IMG/VR virus record: IMGVR_UViG_3300042691_047309
Span: 1-64,000 of that record
Strand: one strand, 5' to 3'
DNA: 64,000 nucleotides
Source: a virus
The notes under the pieces were generated by a model. It was not told where the DNA came from. It did not search any database and saw only the letters and a list, made by a program, of their open reading frames with translations. Within the stretch, counting starts at the first letter, position 1. Each line of letters begins with the position of its first letter. Made by a program: the position numbers and the translations under genes. Below, piece by piece: positions 3,135-55,260 of the stretch.

Positions 3135-3207
<73 letters not shown>

Positions 3208-3210
3208 CAA

Positions 3211-4215
3211 AGAGTTCTCAACGGAGAACAACGTTCTTTGACATATTGATCTTTAACAGTCGGTTTCGACTGACTGTGAAAAGAAGGGCGGCTTATAGTC
3301 CTTAAAATAAACCGTGAAAGCGGGATAAAGTAAATAGAATAGCTAAATCTGTTTGCGTCTTGAATCTTCGGATTTGAGGTCGAGTAAGCAAGTGGGACAC
3401 CACAAAACCTTATTAGTCGAGGGTAACACTGTAGATGAAATGGATTTGTGACCAGGCAATTGTAGTTGTTTGGTTGACCTCGGAAGAGGAATAGGATTAA
3501 CCCATAGGATTGTTGCAAGAAGTAGTGACTCACCGGTTGTTATCATTGCGGAATCCAACTTAATAGGTATCTTAAAGTTGAAAGACAATCATTCGTACAG
3601 GTGGTGCTGTTGTTTGACACTTTTCTCTCTACCAGGGGAGTTATGGTGAAGATATCTTGAAGAGTTGTGGTGGAGGCATCACACGGAGTAGTTCAGTATT
3701 CTTGAGGTCAAAAGCTTTGAGAGCTGAGAGGTAACCACTACTTCGACACAATCTACAAAGCACTAAATTTCACTATTAATGAAACATTTAAAAAGGAAAT
3801 CAAAAGTGTTACCTAGTTACTGATGAAAAGTACCTACTTAGTCGTGAGTGTTCACGGCCACTGAAGCTCGAAAGGCTGATGTGATTTCATCGAAAAGCTT
3901 ATAGAGGGTCGAACCTCGAGTCAGCTCGCAAGGTTGAGTAAGTGGATTAAATGGAGAGTAATTAGTAACTTAAGGAGTGGTTAGTCTAACTAACCGGTAC
4001 TGACAGAGTACTTCTCAAAAGGAAGTGGATAAGAAGGGAAACCATAATCTAACAAAAGTTCTGTCGTAATAAGGTGTAATCTCAACCTTTTCTGGTCGGT
4101 TCATAGGAACCTCTGAGAGCGAGACTCAGACCGACCTCAAAGTTTTCGTAGTGGTTAACTTCCCTTTAATTAGGGAGTCTGTCATAGACAGGATGGGTAC
4201 TTAACCCCATACTAA
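3211..4215 (+). ncRNA. Large structured noncoding RNA, GOLLD/ROOL-type candidate
   Basis: About 1 kb between two tRNA genes, with no sense-strand ORF and visibly higher G+C than its surroundings. Hairpins that can be read directly: GTTCTC/GAGAAC (3214-3229), ACAGTC/GACTGT (3256-3277), an 8-bp stem capped by a TTCG tetraloop (3359-3378), CCTC-GGAA-GAGG with a GNRA loop (3478-3489), GGTTAG/CTAACC (3979-3995), GTACT/AGTAC (3997-4011), a three-way junction (4094-4136) in which GGTCGG/CCGACC encloses GTTC/GAAC and TCTGAG/CTCAGA, TCCCT/AGGGA (4162-4177) and CTGTC/GACAG (4180-4187). Size, phage context and tRNA neighbours fit the GOLLD and ROOL families. Membership is inferred; a new class is equally possible. 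Confidence 0.7.
3233..3258 (+). promoter_or_regulatory. boxA-like antitermination signals
   Basis: GTTCTTTGACATA (3233-3245) resembles the sequence ahead of Bacteroidetes 16S rRNA genes. TGATCTTTAACA (3247-3258) differs from E. coli rrn boxA TGCTCTTTAACA at two positions. Both lie at the 5' end of the long untranslated RNA, where Nus-factor antitermination would be needed to prevent Rho-dependent termination. Confidence 0.45.
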
Positions 4216-4220
4216 ATCTT

Positions 4221-4326
4221 GGCCCGTTCGTCTAGAGGACTCTTAAAAGAGATACAGAAACTTTGTGAACGTAGAGGACGCCTAACTTTTCATTAGGAGA
4301 CATGGGTTCGAATCCCATACGGGCTA
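4221..4326 (+). tRNA. tRNA with ~33-36-nt D-loop insertion (Glu-like body)
   Basis: A 106-nt gene. Acceptor GGCCCGT pairs with ACGGGCT; D stem GTC/GAC; anticodon stem CCTAA/TTAGG; T arm ATGGG-TTCGAAT-CCCAT; discriminator A. The D loop (4233-4276) is 44 nt instead of 8-12. The extra sequence is flanked by a direct repeat TAGAGGAC and contains the hairpin CTCT-TAAA-AGAG. The body (TTCGTCTAGAGG) resembles tRNA-Glu. The loop CTTTTCA reads TTT by stem geometry and TTC if shifted by one, so the isotype (Lys or Glu) is open. CCA is not encoded. Confidence 0.7.
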
Positions 4327-4383: not shown

Positions 4384-4487
4384 GGTCCTTTAGCTCAGTA
4401 GGTTAGAGCAACTGACTCTAAGTGTTATAAGTAAATTAACACAACGTTATAATCAGTAGGTCCACGGTTCGAACCCGTGAAGGACCA
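4384..4487 (+). tRNA. tRNA with a 30-nt insertion in the anticodon loop
   Basis: A 104-nt gene. Every arm is canonical: GGTCCTT/AAGGACC, D arm GCTC-AGTAGGTTA-GAGC, anticodon stem ACTGA/TCAGT, T arm CACGG-TTCGAAC-CCGTG, discriminator A. The anticodon loop is 37 nt (4422-4458) instead of 7. Removing 30 nt restores a 74-nt tRNA. The insertion contains the perfect hairpin GTGTTA/TAACAC. If an intron sat at the usual 37/38 position, the spliced loop would be CTCTAAA (anticodon CTA). Using the last seven bases gives TAT. Amino acid identity therefore cannot be assigned. Confidence 0.75.
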
Positions 4488-4492
4488 CAAAT

Positions 4493-4519
4493 CCATCAAA
4501 AAATTTGGTGGGTTTTTTT
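4493..4519 (+). terminator. Terminator of the RNA island, overlapping the next promoter
   Basis: CCATC (4493-4497) pairs with GGTGG (4507-4511), followed by a T run (4513-4519). The 3' arm shares the TTTG at 4504-4507 with the -33 element of the downstream promoter. Confidence 0.65.
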
Positions 4520-6245: not shown

Positions 6246-6468
6246 AAAAGTCAAAGTAATTTTGACTTTGGATGATGTATTTCAAAAAGGTGAAACACTT
6301 TTTGAATTTTTGGACTATCCAGACCATTTTTATAAAGAAGATAATATTAAAGATTTTATTAATATTAAAACTATTTGTGAATATGGTCCATTTGAAATGT
6401 GGTTTGAAGAGTTAAAACCTGTTGAAAAAGAAAAAACACCTCAGTATAAACTTCTAATTTCTAAGTGA
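6229..6468 (+). CDS. Hypothetical protein
   Basis: A 79-residue protein starting MLEKVRKVKVIL. The ATG at 6229 overlaps the CYTH gene by 17 nt and is preferred to an upstream in-frame start at 6202. No motif is recognised. Acidic centre with two aromatic clusters (FEFLDYPDHFY, FEMWFEEL). Confidence 0.6.
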   Translation: MLEKVRKVKVILTLDDVFQKGETLFEFLDYPDHFYKEDNIKDFINIKTICEYGPFEMWFEELKPVEKEKTPQYKLLISK

Positions 6469-6478
6469 TATAATTTTT

Positions 6479-7069
6479 ATGAACGAAAAATTAGAACTTA
6501 GAATGTATGGCTTAGTCCCCTACAATATTTCCGCCATCCAACAAGCAATTCAATTTGGACATGCTGTTGTCGAATATGGTCAGATGGTTAAACAACCACA
6601 ATCTCTTAGTAAGATGGCTATTAATGCTTCTTTTATTTATGATGATTGGGCTGATAATTGGAAGACCTTTATAGTACTTAATGGAGGTACAACTAATCAT
6701 AGAAACAATGATGATGGTCTTCCATTTGGAACTCTTAATAACCATGTTTTGGCATTGGATGAAAATAGAATTGATTTTGCAACTTTTAATGAACCTGATT
6801 TAGGTGATCAATTGACATCGGTTGTTTTTATTGTTGATGAAAGAGTTTTCAATCGTAAAAGATATCCTGATTTTGAAGATTGGGTTATGAATAATTATGG
6901 AGAATTGGTGAGAACAGATTACTACACGTCATCTTATATGTTAGCTCAAAAAATTAAAAATTCGGATAGTAAAGCTGATAAAAAAGTTTATGAAGAATGG
7001 ATAAAATTTGTTGGTGGAAATAAGAATGTCTTTTTAAGAGATTTTTTGAAAAATTTTAAATTAGCATGA
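6479..7069 (+). CDS. Pth2-like (peptidyl-tRNA hydrolase 2 fold) protein
   Basis: 196 residues. The N-terminal Y-x-x-x-A-I-Q-Q-A-I-Q-F-G-H-A-V-V-E segment matches the Pth2 A-Q-x-x-H-A helix. Later, WKTFIVLNGG, a valine-rich strand and FNEPDLGDQLTSVVF near 102-117 match the family's E-P-D-x-G-x-x-x-T-A-x-x-F stretch. The residues that bind tRNA are less clear, so enzyme activity is uncertain. It overlaps the next gene by 4 nt. Peptidyl-tRNA recycling would fit a phage with its own tRNAs. Confidence 0.6.
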   Translation: MNEKLELRMYGLVPYNISAIQQAIQFGHAVVEYGQMVKQPQSLSKMAINASFIYDDWADNWKTFIVLNGGTTNHRNNDDGLPFGTLNNHVLALDENRIDFATFNEPDLGDQLTSVVFIVDERVFNRKRYPDFEDWVMNNYGELVRTDYYTSSYMLAQKIKNSDSKADKKVYEEWIKFVGGNKNVFLRDFLKNFKLA

Positions 7070-32805: not shown

Positions 32806-33641
32806 TACATTTTCAATAATATTTTTAAAGTATAATCATATATCGGTCTTGAAGTGTCAAAATATCTTTCATCCCTTGAAAAGGGCCAAAGAACTTCTTC
32901 ATAGTCTAATTCTGCTGTAATCAAGTCAATTCTATCATCTAATTCTTTTTCTAAGTCTAATAAACTCATTTGACCTGTTCTGTGAGAATCTACCGATGAC
33001 CAACCACCAATGTCAATTACCACACCTGGTTGATACATACTAAGAACATTTTCAGGAGAATATAATTTTAATTTTCTCATCTCATATTCTTTAAGTTCAG
33101 TAAATTCTGAGAAGTCAAAATTCTGACATTGCCACTTTTTATCTGTAACAAATTCAGATTCTGGTGCTGTTCTAAAATTGACTTCAGTATCTATCAATCT
33201 TGAACAAGATACCGTTGGTCTTACAATTTCAAAAATTATATTATGTAAAATATAACTTTTTCTTTTCATATCATCTGATTCAAAAATAGGCATAGTTCCA
33301 TTATACTTAAGCTCGTTAATATCATTTACTCTATCATAATCTCCATAAAGAACGGCACAATAAATATTCTTTTCTTTTTCATCAGGTAGAGTGTCATAGA
33401 TTTCAAGCATCGCATCTTTTATATGATTCAAATCAACTTCTGAAAGTATTTGAAACATTCTATCAACATGAGACTTTATTTTCTGCCACCAACCATCTCC
33501 TACAAAATGGTCAGTCCATCTTTCTAATTGTGATATATCATTATTTGACCAGTGATTATTTCTAAGATAATCATAGAAATCAAAAATAGAATATTCTTTT
33601 TGAGACTCTAAAAAAGATTTATATGTTTCTAATTTTTTCAT
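32805..33641 (-). CDS. Leader-bearing protein of unknown function
   Basis: 278 residues, leader MKKLETYKSFLESQ. The following region (YDYLRNNHWSNNDISQLERW) is helical. RPTVSCSRLIDTEVNFRTAPESEF near 145-170 and VVIDIGGWSSVDSH near 217-230 are the best conserved-looking parts, but no family is recognised. Overlaps the upstream fusion gene by 4 nt. Confidence 0.7.
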   Translation of the reverse strand: MKKLETYKSFLESQKEYSIFDFYDYLRNNHWSNNDISQLERWTDHFVGDGWWQKIKSHVDRMFQILSEVDLNHIKDAMLEIYDTLPDEKEKNIYCAVLYGDYDRVNDINELKYNGTMPIFESDDMKRKSYILHNIIFEIVRPTVSCSRLIDTEVNFRTAPESEFVTDKKWQCQNFDFSEFTELKEYEMRKLKLYSPENVLSMYQPGVVIDIGGWSSVDSHRTGQMSLLDLEKELDDRIDLITAELDYEEVLWPFSRDERYFDTSRPIYDYTLKILLKM

Positions 33642-35344
33642 CTTAAAGTTTTTATTCTTTCTACTTGATATTTCATTATATCAACATCTTGATTTTGTTT
33701 AAGTAAATCAATTATCTTTTGATACATTTGTATTGTTATCCTACAGTCTGTAATGGCGTCGTGATAACCCATCATATTAACTCCTAAGACCGGTCCTATT
33801 TTAGCCATTGATGATGATATAAGTCCGTTATCTCTTGTAGATGTTCCTATAAAATCAATCATTTCTTTATATTTAGTATCTGTTTCAGCTAATGTTTGTA
33901 ATAGAGGTAAGAAATATAACTGAATCAACATTTTAGTATCAAATACTTCGCTTTCAATTTTGTGACCGTATCTTCCACTTAGCATTGCCATATCAAAACT
34001 CGCATTTTGAGCAACTAATATATTTGGTGAGTAATTACTAACCCATCTGAAAAAGTCATCTACTATATCTTTTTCATTTTTATATTTATAATCACCTGAT
34101 CCATAGTGATTAAACCCCAATACCCACTTAGTTTTATCCTCAGGTTGTAGAAACTTTGATTTAGTTTCATCTGTTAATTTTATCTTTTCATCAAATGTTC
34201 CTATTTCACTAAAATTGTTTGATTTGAAATCATACTGAGTTGCTATTGCAGATACTTGAGTTAATTGTTGTTGTTTTGGACCACCTAACCCAGTCGTTTC
34301 GGTGTCGCACCAGATAAACGGCAGTGTGGATTTAGATTCTAACCACTCTAATATTTCTGGTATAGTTTTATACCACATTTTATTTTCATTCAATCCTTCC
34401 TCTACCTTATCAAAATGTATATAAACTTGCTCAGATATCGTTCCTTCATTAAGTGTTTTAATTTTTGTTGAAAATCCTTCAGATTCTAAATAACTTATAG
34501 TTGCCTCAACAACAGGACTTATTTCATTCCAAAACTCATCGTGAGTTAGTCTTCTTTGATTTTTAATCCAAACATAAGGACCATGTAACCAATAGTGTTT
34601 TTTATCTTTCGGTCTTATTAAGTCAATAAATGAATTAAGTTTGGAAGGTGACTCTGTGAATCCACTGATATGTGGTCTGTATCCTAAATCTTCTAATTCT
34701 AAAAGAATATTTCTTAAATAAGATTCCAATTCCAATCTAATTGGACTAGTTGGTAGTTTCCACTCAGAGTCATATTCTATACCTTCATGTTTAATTGATT
34801 CATTTGTTTTATAGTCAAATTTAACTTTTTCACCCGATGGCATTGAGTAAGTAATCTTATCAACATTTTTTACTTCATATTTATAACCAGGATTGACATA
34901 CTTTTTACCTGTTCCCTTTTTAACATAAGCAATTGTTATGTGTGGTTTGTAATCAGGATACTGATCTGAATTAGGAAACTTAGAAAGCTCATCGTGTAAG
35001 TATTGTAAAGCACCATCCGGTTTTACATTAAACTTAACAACATCAAACTTCTCATTCTCAAAGATATCTATACCATCTACTACTATGTTTATATTGTCTG
35101 TAAAGTTATCAAATACAGATTTTACCATATCTGGAGTTACCGTATCATGAAGACCATAGAGTAAAGTAAGGTGTGGGTTATTTTGAATTCCGTATGTTGA
35201 ATCTCCTTCTTCTTCATAAATATCTTCCTCATCAATAGATGATGTTATCTCATTCCAGTTACTAACTGGGATTTCGACCATAACACATCCATATTGATAG
35301 CCTGATGACTCCTTAATAAATTGTATGTAGTTTTTGATTTTCAT
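33638..35344 (-). CDS. 2H phosphoesterase - DEDDh exonuclease fusion with leader
   Basis: 568 residues. The leader MKIKNYIQFIKESS is followed by a 2H phosphoesterase domain with H-L-T (58-60) and H-I-T (135-137). Then K-T-N-E-S (179-183), a middle domain of about 110 residues resembling the small leader proteins, and a DnaQ-like exonuclease: DTETTGL (347-353), NASFD (447-451) and HDAITD (528-533). All DEDDh catalytic residues are present. 2H enzymes cut 2'-5' or cyclic nucleotides; Acb1 of T4 is one. An anti-defence function delivered with the DNA is inference. Confidence 0.85.
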   Translation of the reverse strand: MKIKNYIQFIKESSGYQYGCVMVEIPVSNWNEITSSIDEEDIYEEEGDSTYGIQNNPHLTLLYGLHDTVTPDMVKSVFDNFTDNINIVVDGIDIFENEKFDVVKFNVKPDGALQYLHDELSKFPNSDQYPDYKPHITIAYVKKGTGKKYVNPGYKYEVKNVDKITYSMPSGEKVKFDYKTNESIKHEGIEYDSEWKLPTSPIRLELESYLRNILLELEDLGYRPHISGFTESPSKLNSFIDLIRPKDKKHYWLHGPYVWIKNQRRLTHDEFWNEISPVVEATISYLESEGFSTKIKTLNEGTISEQVYIHFDKVEEGLNENKMWYKTIPEILEWLESKSTLPFIWCDTETTGLGGPKQQQLTQVSAIATQYDFKSNNFSEIGTFDEKIKLTDETKSKFLQPEDKTKWVLGFNHYGSGDYKYKNEKDIVDDFFRWVSNYSPNILVAQNASFDMAMLSGRYGHKIESEVFDTKMLIQLYFLPLLQTLAETDTKYKEMIDFIGTSTRDNGLISSSMAKIGPVLGVNMMGYHDAITDCRITIQMYQKIIDLLKQNQDVDIMKYQVERIKTLR

Positions 35345-53693: not shown

Positions 53694-53881
53694 AGTGACT
53701 TTTTAATTTGTTTTGGTAGTTGTTCATTTGATAACTCAAATTCTCTAATACCACTTCTAGTATTACTCACCATTAAAAATTTAAAATTGAAACTATCATT
53801 AGTTTTTGTTCTAACATGATAGTATTCGTCAATTGATCCACTTGTGTGAATTGTTCCTAAATGTTTTTTATCTGTATTCAT
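53690..53881 (-). CDS. Small hypothetical protein
   Basis: 63 residues (KKHLGTIHTSGSIDEYYHVRT near 5-25, then a hydrophilic end). No family recognised. Overlaps the nucleotidyltransferase gene by 4 nt. Confidence 0.5.
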   Translation of the reverse strand: MNTDKKHLGTIHTSGSIDEYYHVRTKTNDSFNFKFLMVSNTRSGIREFELSNEQLPKQIKKSL

Positions 53882-53916
53882 ATCTTTTTTATGATAATTT
53901 TTACAAAAGTTTTCAC

Positions 53917-53924
53917 TATATTTG
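53917..53924 (+). promoter_or_regulatory. Bacteroidetes-type -7 element
   Basis: TATATTTG ends 16 nt before the RNA ligase ATG at 53941. A clear TTTG is not seen at the usual distance. Confidence 0.45.
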
Positions 53925-53940
53925 CAGAATATATAACTCT

Positions 53941-55260
53941 ATGAAGTTATTCAGATATATGGAATTTATAAAAGAAAGCGTTACTCAATACTCTATACCT
54001 TCTTATGAAGAGGCGGTTGAGATGTGCTCTAAACCAGATGCTGCTTTTTATGAATCAAAAACTGAAGTTGATGGTTTTCCAATAAGCATCTTCAATTATA
54101 GACTTGCTCAATTTAGTGATTTTAATCTACCATTGGAGAATAAACCAGAAGTTAAAGCTTTTGAAATGAGAGGTCTTACTTTTGTTTTTAATAAAGATGG
54201 TTCTCTTTATAAAAGATTTGTGCTACTTGAAAAGTTCTTTAACTTGAATCAAGTTCCTAATTCTATGTATTCTGTTGTTAAAGATTACAAAATTCGTTAT
54301 GTTAATAACAAAGAAGATGGTTCTATTGCTTCATTTATTCAATTACCAAATGGAAAGATTATAGGTCGTTCTAAAATGGGGTTTGATAATGACCAAGCAA
54401 ATGGTATAAACAAAATCTATAAAACAAATGCGGATATAAATCAATTTGTTAATTGGTGTTTATCACAAGACATAACTCCGATATTCGAGTATGTCGCGCC
54501 CCACAACCGTGTAGTTTTAAGATACTCACAAGAAGAGCTGATACTTTTAAGACTAAGAGATAACAAGACCGGAAAACATATCGATATCAAAGACCATTTA
54601 GATAAAATTGGTTCAATTAAGATTGCACCTTTTGAGGATGACCACACTTTGGATGACCTAATTGAAAAGTCAAAAACTGAAGCAGAGAGAGAAGGATGGA
54701 TTGTTCAGTTTGATAATGATCACATGCTTAAAATCAAAACTGATTGGTATTGCCAAAGACACGGACTTTTAACAAATGACATTTATAGAGAACATATTAT
54801 TATAGGATATATCTTAGATGATAAGATTGATGATATTTTAGGTCAAATTCCTGAGGATGAAAAAGAAGCACACGAAAGAATACAAAAGATAATTTCAATT
54901 GTTAAAAGAGAAATTAACAATTTAGTTTCACAGATGAATTCTGCTTACTCGGAATTTGTTAAGTCAGGTGCTGATAAAAGAGATTATGCTATTAATCATA
55001 GAGTTGGAAATCCTAACTTTCATTTTGTTATGAGTATGGATAAATATGATAAATTAAAATCTATGTCTAAAGAAGATATATTAGAGTATTATGATTCAGT
55101 TGAAGCTTGGGAAAAGGCAATTGAAAAATATCAACCTTATAACTTAGCTGTTGAGACAATAAGAGATAAAACTAAGAGATTGGAAATAGCCAGAGAATGG
55201 TTAGAATCAAAAGATCCTGGATTATTTTTTAGAGATCCAGAAGAGTCAGAGGAGAATTAA
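53941..55260 (+). CDS. T4 Rnl1-type RNA ligase with leader
   Basis: 439 residues from the ATG at 53941; an upstream in-frame start at 53833 would add 36 hydrophobic residues and place the promoter inside the gene. Leader MKLFRYMEFIKESV. The nucleotidyl-lysine motif is K124 in NKEDGS, motif III-like FEYVAP near 182-187, motif IV EGWIVQF (251-257), motif V LKIKTDWY (263-270). Seals 5'-P to 3'-OH RNA ends, in T4 to repair cleaved tRNA anticodon loops. The helical C-terminus may be the tRNA-specific domain. Confidence 0.9.
   Translation: MKLFRYMEFIKESVTQYSIPSYEEAVEMCSKPDAAFYESKTEVDGFPISIFNYRLAQFSDFNLPLENKPEVKAFEMRGLTFVFNKDGSLYKRFVLLEKFFNLNQVPNSMYSVVKDYKIRYVNNKEDGSIASFIQLPNGKIIGRSKMGFDNDQANGINKIYKTNADINQFVNWCLSQDITPIFEYVAPHNRVVLRYSQEELILLRLRDNKTGKHIDIKDHLDKIGSIKIAPFEDDHTLDDLIEKSKTEAEREGWIVQFDNDHMLKIKTDWYCQRHGLLTNDIYREHIIIGYILDDKIDDILGQIPEDEKEAHERIQKIISIVKREINNLVSQMNSAYSEFVKSGADKRDYAINHRVGNPNFHFVMSMDKYDKLKSMSKEDILEYYDSVEAWEKAIEKYQPYNLAVETIRDKTKRLEIAREWLESKDPGLFFRDPEESEEN

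Follow-up and report, generated by a model that had tools for sequence, protein, structure and literature searches.

A conserved 30-nt hairpin element in the anticodon loop of phage tRNA genes as a candidate mini-intron

Does a giant-phage tRNA gene that carries 30 extra nucleotides within its anticodon loop give rise to a spliced tRNA and, if so, what would take the extra segment out? Archaea and eukaryotes splice tRNAs enzymatically, whereas the known bacterial tRNA introns are, to our knowledge, self-splicing, and we know of no bacterial machinery for mini-introns of this kind. The gene in question lies in a 64,000-nt stretch of viral DNA (positions 1 to 64,000 of IMG/VR record IMGVR_UViG_3300042691_047309, hereafter the window). 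The record measures 175.9 kb, and among named phages its closest relatives are LR745206 and LR756502 (635 and 642 kb). A study of huge phages placed all those above 634 kb in the Mahaphage clade, with predicted Bacteroidetes hosts (PMC7162821).

Positions 4384-4487 of the plus strand match the Rfam tRNA family (RF00005) with a score of 61.8 bits against a cut-off of 29, the anticodon loop being enlarged by a long insertion. All stems are intact, with 7/7 acceptor, 4/4 D, 5/5 anticodon and 5/5 T pairs. The 5' exon (4384-4418, delimited by Rfam, ARAGORN and a BLAST break at 4418) comprises the 5' strand of the acceptor stem, the D arm, the 5' strand of the anticodon stem and the loop bases C32, T33 and C34. 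The 3' exon (4449-4487, from Rfam and BLAST) supplies A35, T36, A37 and A38, followed by the 3' strand of the anticodon stem, the variable loop, the T arm, the 3' strand of the acceptor stem and A73; CCA is not encoded. A sequence-only reading of this DNA had described canonical arms and a normal 7-nt loop once 30 nt are removed, and the Rfam match, stem counts and BLAST alignment bear it out. Run without introns, ARAGORN missed the gene; with introns allowed, its default rule named it 'Pyl(cta)', because the canonical intron position is assumed.

The true position of the insertion follows from comparison with three close relatives of the window, found through a neighbouring protein. One of these (L058/L066) is syntenic with the window, at ~80-85% nucleotide identity across the greater part of the region, and in L066 the same tRNA (6434-6508) is uninterrupted, reading ACTGA CTCATAA TCAGT with the anticodon CAT. 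The second (L068) has an intact tRNA-Met(CAT) at the corresponding place, and in the third (L059) no tRNA was detected there. In the BLAST alignment of the window to L066 the break lies exactly at 4418|4449, and the L066 sequence is contiguous across it; the insertion is therefore a clean 30-nt segment, TAAGTGTTATAAGTAAATTAACACAACGTT, at 4419-4448 (plus strand), between C34 and A35. With this segment removed, the tRNA is 97% identical over 74 nt to an intact phage tRNA-Met (L077) with the loop CTCATAA, and the spliced product would carry the anticodon CAU, specific for Met or, if modified, for Ile2 (AUA). Two expectations of the sequence-only reading thus fall away: the insertion is at 34/35 and not at the archaeal and eukaryotic position 37/38, and the anticodon left after removal is CAT and not the amber-reading CTA, as both the ortholog and the 97% identical tRNA bodies have it. 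An amber suppressor tRNA was rejected on the same ground, that the uninterrupted ortholog reads CAT. A tRNA-Lys(CTT) formed through a 35/36 junction is a minor alternative, in which the element would be framed 2+21+7 instead of 3+21+6 and A35 would additionally have to have changed to T relative to the ortholog.

Within the insertion, a hairpin is formed by GTGTTA (4422-4427) and TAACAC (4437-4442) around the 9-nt loop TAAGTAAAT (4428-4436), all on the plus strand. About 9% of shuffled window inserts reach a stem as good, and for this reason the window hairpin taken alone was kept out of the evidence. The minimum free energy fold of the region gives a 3x3 internal loop, 3 bp, a 4-nt bulge on the 3' side and 6 bp; neither a bulge-helix-bulge nor its relaxed form is present in this fold at the putative splice sites of the window, which counts against reading the insertion as a mini-intron. 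No match to a group I or II intron was found in Rfam, and a catalytic core of well over 100 nt compares with an insertion of 30 nt, just as had been argued from length. A dispersed-repeat check found no second copy of the element within the window.

The same element does, however, recur in the tRNAs of other phages, where the sequence of the hairpin already noted in the sequence-only reading is conserved. A generic scan in which the insert was unconstrained (GAGCA-5N-CT-gap-AA-6N-GGT-4N-GGTTCGA) yielded 20 structurally sound cases of anticodon-loop insertion, two of which are exactly 30 nt long and carry the window's hairpin: a tRNA-Lys on a 38-kb contig (L471) and a tRNA-Asn on contigs of 86 and 127 kb (L434, identical to L461). 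We defined the family by a 30-nt length, the loop TAAGTAART, a 6-bp stem and a location in a tRNA anticodon loop, features shared by the window, L471 and L434. Aligned in that order (TAAGTGTTATAAGTAAATTAACACAACGTT / TAGGTGTGATAAGTAAATTCACACGAAGAT / TAGGTATGATAAGTAAGTTCATACAAGGAG), the three elements are invariant in 20 of 30 columns and give the consensus TAR-GTRTKA-TAAGTAART-TMAYAC-RANGNK, in which the loop differs by a single A/G change. This near-invariance suggests that something may read the loop, UAAGUAARU in the RNA. All 18 cells of the family stem pair and two of its six pairs change on both sides, whereas slid controls are 6-56% paired; the loop, with one mismatch allowed, occurred together with a 6-bp stem in 13 of 300,000 shuffled inserts. 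Pair shuffling gave 62/500, a control that is weak because the family consists of three distinct sequences and that we count against the mini-intron reading.

Removing the element restores 7-nt loops in all three tRNAs (CTCATAA in the window, CTTTTAA in L471 and CTGTTAA in L434), and intact homologous tRNAs with the restored loops exist (97% identical over 74 nt, 85% over 66 and 93% over 56). The L434 tRNA has G73, as expected of tRNA-Asn, and adjoins an intact tRNA-Asn within a tRNA array. The phase of the junction differs between members, which also counts against the mini-intron reading: it is 34/35 in the window and 32/33 or 33/34 in L471 and L434, these last two being indistinguishable because of a shared T. 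When all viral contigs were searched for the loop beside a T arm, the L471 and L434 elements came up again and no additional inserted tRNA did, although searches of this type may leave out the record to which the window belongs. Weak matches with three mismatches in the carrier genomes were about as frequent as those of reversed-pattern controls. No 30-nt element was found among 50,697 records of cultured phages, where partial matches were at chance level, nor was any family member found in a scan of bacterial and archaeal genomes, whose matches were for the most part introns from archaea, tRNAs lying side by side and what look like internal duplications.

Might the window gene simply be a pseudogene, a dispensable tRNA gene recently disrupted by a short element or a slippage product? 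The closest relatives lack the insertion, which counts against the mini-intron reading of this tRNA, and the genome has another tRNA-Met(CAT) at 3135-3208. Degeneration of a related gene can be seen in LR756502 (388572-388674), where a tRNA-Met bearing a 31-nt insert has a bulged, and thus flawed, acceptor stem. Its ortholog in G003 (254407-254502, 23-nt insert) has lost one D-stem pair. These two genes are 75% identical over the region and their inserts can be aligned. None of the seven exon bases in the loop (CTC...ATAA) differs between them, while inspection of the alignment shows changes on both sides, with pairing kept, in three pairs of the anticodon stem, three of the T stem and one of the D stem. 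Since the loop bases were kept while stem pairs changed on both sides, the comparison suggests that selection continued to act on this tRNA-Met while it carried the insert. The window tRNA itself has perfect stems, and its body is 97% identical to that of intact tRNAs. The sequence-only reading had considered that the insertion might be a one-off degradation missing in all relatives; close relatives do indeed lack it, but the recurrence of the same 30-nt element in two other tRNAs, from other phages, argues against one-off decay. On balance, we consider recent disruption decidedly improbable.

Short anticodon-loop insertions of other kinds are present in many phage tRNAs. Matches of a broad viral scan included class II tRNAs and tRNA-like genes whose insert lies near position 26, and we counted those with intact stems and U33 only. 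A first scan found insertions of 20 nt in a tRNA-Lys (L192), 21 nt in a tRNA-Lys of a 532-kb phage (L198) and 42 nt in a tRNA-Thr in two assemblies (L190, L191). Further genes, for tRNA-Arg(TCT) (L315, L417, L453, L457, L480) and tRNA-Ile(TAT) (L454), carry insertions of 26-38 nt in which the anticodon region, TTCT or TTAT, pairs with the 3' end of the insert to form a long hairpin, consistent with insertion at position 36/37. Anticodon-loop insertions of 44 nt with a T-arm-like hairpin (GGTTCAACTCC) occur in L255 and L264, and in L254 (4971-5120) a complete tRNA is nested inside the anticodon loop of another. Longer anticodon-loop introns, of 79-141 nt, are found in three tRNAs of L280, in L303 and in the Lak phages L367, L368 and L372; they have in common a 5' hairpin and, nested in the intron, a tRNA-like domain made up of an 8-bp acceptor-like stem and a T arm. 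A near-identical Lak intron is present in two different tRNA genes, which suggests mobility. Elsewhere in the tRNA fold, tRNA-like genes in L258, L291, L297, L307 and L237 have ~42 extra bases between the D and anticodon arms, with a common hairpin and the motif ACAGCAA, and relatives of Mahaphage (G001, G002 and G004, corresponding to L355, L352 and L353) have a conserved tRNA of 122-128 nt with a long insertion between the same arms.

If the 30-nt element is removed, the exons would have to be rejoined, and the window phage encodes a candidate sealing enzyme, a T4-type RNA ligase 1 (Rnl1) recognised by profile match (PF09511 / phrog_562) at 53833-55260 on the plus strand, with the domain at 54163-54750. 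The ligase mentioned in the sequence-only reading is thereby confirmed. Of the kinase mentioned with it, a P-loop kinase domain (PF13671, AAA_33) is present at 21-497 on the plus strand; its identity as a polynucleotide kinase, and hence as a candidate for healing RNA ends, is putative. A 2H phosphoesterase domain (PF13563) fused to a DEDD exonuclease domain (PF00929), encoded at 33638-35344 on the minus strand, is a possible RNA end-processing protein. RtcB is absent from the window record.

Phages with short insertions encode Rnl1 much more often than controls do, which makes the proposed link to phage RNA repair enzymes plausible. PF09511 scored above the cut-off in 13/25 distinct carriers and in 3/36 control contigs (p=2e-4), the controls being viral contigs carrying a tRNA-Met. 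Because these were smaller on average than the carriers, the comparison was repeated below 200 kb, where 7/17 carriers and 2/33 controls have Rnl1 (p=0.004); both p-values are only indicative since the carrier set was assembled by hand. In the L434 contigs the ligase lies ~3.8 kb from the interrupted tRNA, and the L471 contig has only a partial, below-cut-off match. Rnl1 above the cut-off was not found in the other 12 of the 25 carriers, many of which are fragments. The EndA splicing endonuclease (PF01974) was found in 0/18 phage records, the fragmentary window record among them, and in 4/4 archaeal controls. We count the 12 carriers lacking Rnl1 above the cut-off and the failure to find EndA in phage records against the mini-intron reading.

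The ligase association might just as well stem from a common exposure to anticodon nucleases. In the main rival to splicing, the insertion is never removed but hides the anticodon loop from host anticodon nucleases, or baits them, while Rnl1 repairs other tRNAs of the phage. Phage tRNAs and RNA ligases have been tied to anticodon-nuclease defences (reviewed in PMC7824862), the Rnl1 association is just as much expected of such a decoy or shield, and the insertion falls exactly in the anticodon. An exact 7-nt loop with a cognate anticodon would, however, be needless in a decoy, yet it is kept in the three family members and in LR756502 and G003; an unspliced tRNA could not decode, and the conserved 9-nt loop of the insert suggests a specific reader. 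We therefore regard this rival as unlikely.

The surroundings of the window gene raise another alternative. Upstream of it lies a GOLLD RNA (3684-4088, plus strand; Rfam, 291 bits), and between the two is a tRNA-Glu-like element (4221-4326, plus strand; identified by ARAGORN and from relatives) whose D loop has a structured insertion, conserved 3' of GOLLD in the window, L057, L059, L066 and L068. Directly 3' of the interrupted tRNA is a terminator-like hairpin with a T run (4489-4515, plus strand) that is conserved in L066. At the 3' end of GOLLD, L060 and L061 carry a second tRNA-Glu-like element, which in the window appears to be reduced to a hairpin (about 4095-4137). With GOLLD and a tRNA-Glu-like element adjoining the interrupted tRNA, the locus seems to reuse tRNA folds, and the gene might accordingly specify a non-decoding RNA whose extended anticodon arm binds a protein or another RNA, the tRNA fold serving for processing and stability. 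Against this, the Asn member of the family (L434) sits in an ordinary tRNA array and all members keep the exon bases of the loop, so that we consider a non-decoding role very improbable.

The reading we favour, with a rough probability of 0.55, takes the insertion for a true mini-intron belonging to a conserved family, which would be excised after transcription through cleavage by an RNase and resealing by the phage ligase. In its favour are the uninterrupted ortholog, the presence of the element in three isoacceptors, the covarying pairs, the intact arms, the restoration of the loop and the association with Rnl1. Both the excision and its mechanism we infer from sequence. The precursor would be transcribed and trimmed as a tRNA, with the hairpin looping out of the anticodon loop; some host or phage RNase would cut at the borders of the element; the phage kinase would heal the ends; and the exons would be joined by Rnl1, the T4 homolog of which mends breaks in anticodon loops. 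The more general proposition, that phages have an enzymatic tRNA splicing of their own in which short hairpin introns are cut by a nuclease other than EndA and sealed by a T4-type Rnl1, is possible and put forward tentatively.

How does such an element relate to known systems? Like the protein-spliced tRNA introns of archaea and eukaryotes, it is short and structured, lies in the anticodon loop and leaves a 7-nt loop on removal; unlike them, it has no bulge-helix-bulge, is not at 37/38 and is found in phage records with no gene of the EndA family. Group I introns also occur in bacterial tRNA anticodon loops, and those of tRNA-Leu(UAA) are at 34/35, the same position within the anticodon as in the window, but the window element is 30 nt long and matches no group I or II family in Rfam. 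In phage T4, Pnkp and Rnl1 repair tRNA anticodon-loop breaks after cleavage by PrrC; the window phage encodes the same type of ligase, although T4 repair rejoins a cut tRNA whereas here a segment would need to be taken out.

The closest likeness is to the tRNA introns of Lak megaphages, phages of the same Mahaphage clade, which introns Devoto et al. 2019 (PMC6784885) describe as enigmatic and not previously reported in phages, and which are mentioned again in follow-up studies (PMC8346664, PMC13037316). Their publication overturns the statement in the sequence-only reading that group I and II introns are the only tRNA introns known in phages. As in the Lak cases, a phage tRNA is interrupted in its anticodon loop in the window, and related copies lack the insertion. 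The Lak introns that we examined are, however, 87-141 nt long, combine a 5' hairpin with a nested acceptor/T-arm domain and are located at 35/36 or 36/37, whereas the window element is a single 30-nt hairpin at 34/35 with no sequence in common and no nested tRNA-like domain. Phage tRNA introns are thus a kind already known, and the conserved 30-nt element is a variant of them. In the literature searched we found no account of the 30-nt element, of its recurrence in three isoacceptors or of the ligase association, nor of how phage tRNA introns could be removed.

For work on phage genomes, a practical consequence is that default bacterial tRNA finders miss such genes or misname them, as with 'Pyl' in the window. 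What was an enigmatic phage tRNA intron is now a defined RNA element of 30 nt that has conserved bases, occurs in three different host tRNAs and comes with a candidate ligase; and because the element is defined and the candidate ligase is encoded by the same phages, the question of its removal is testable in a tube. If phages do splice these tRNAs enzymatically, tRNA splicing that depends on proteins would exist in a bacterial context, and a second, constructive role would be added to T4-type tRNA repair.
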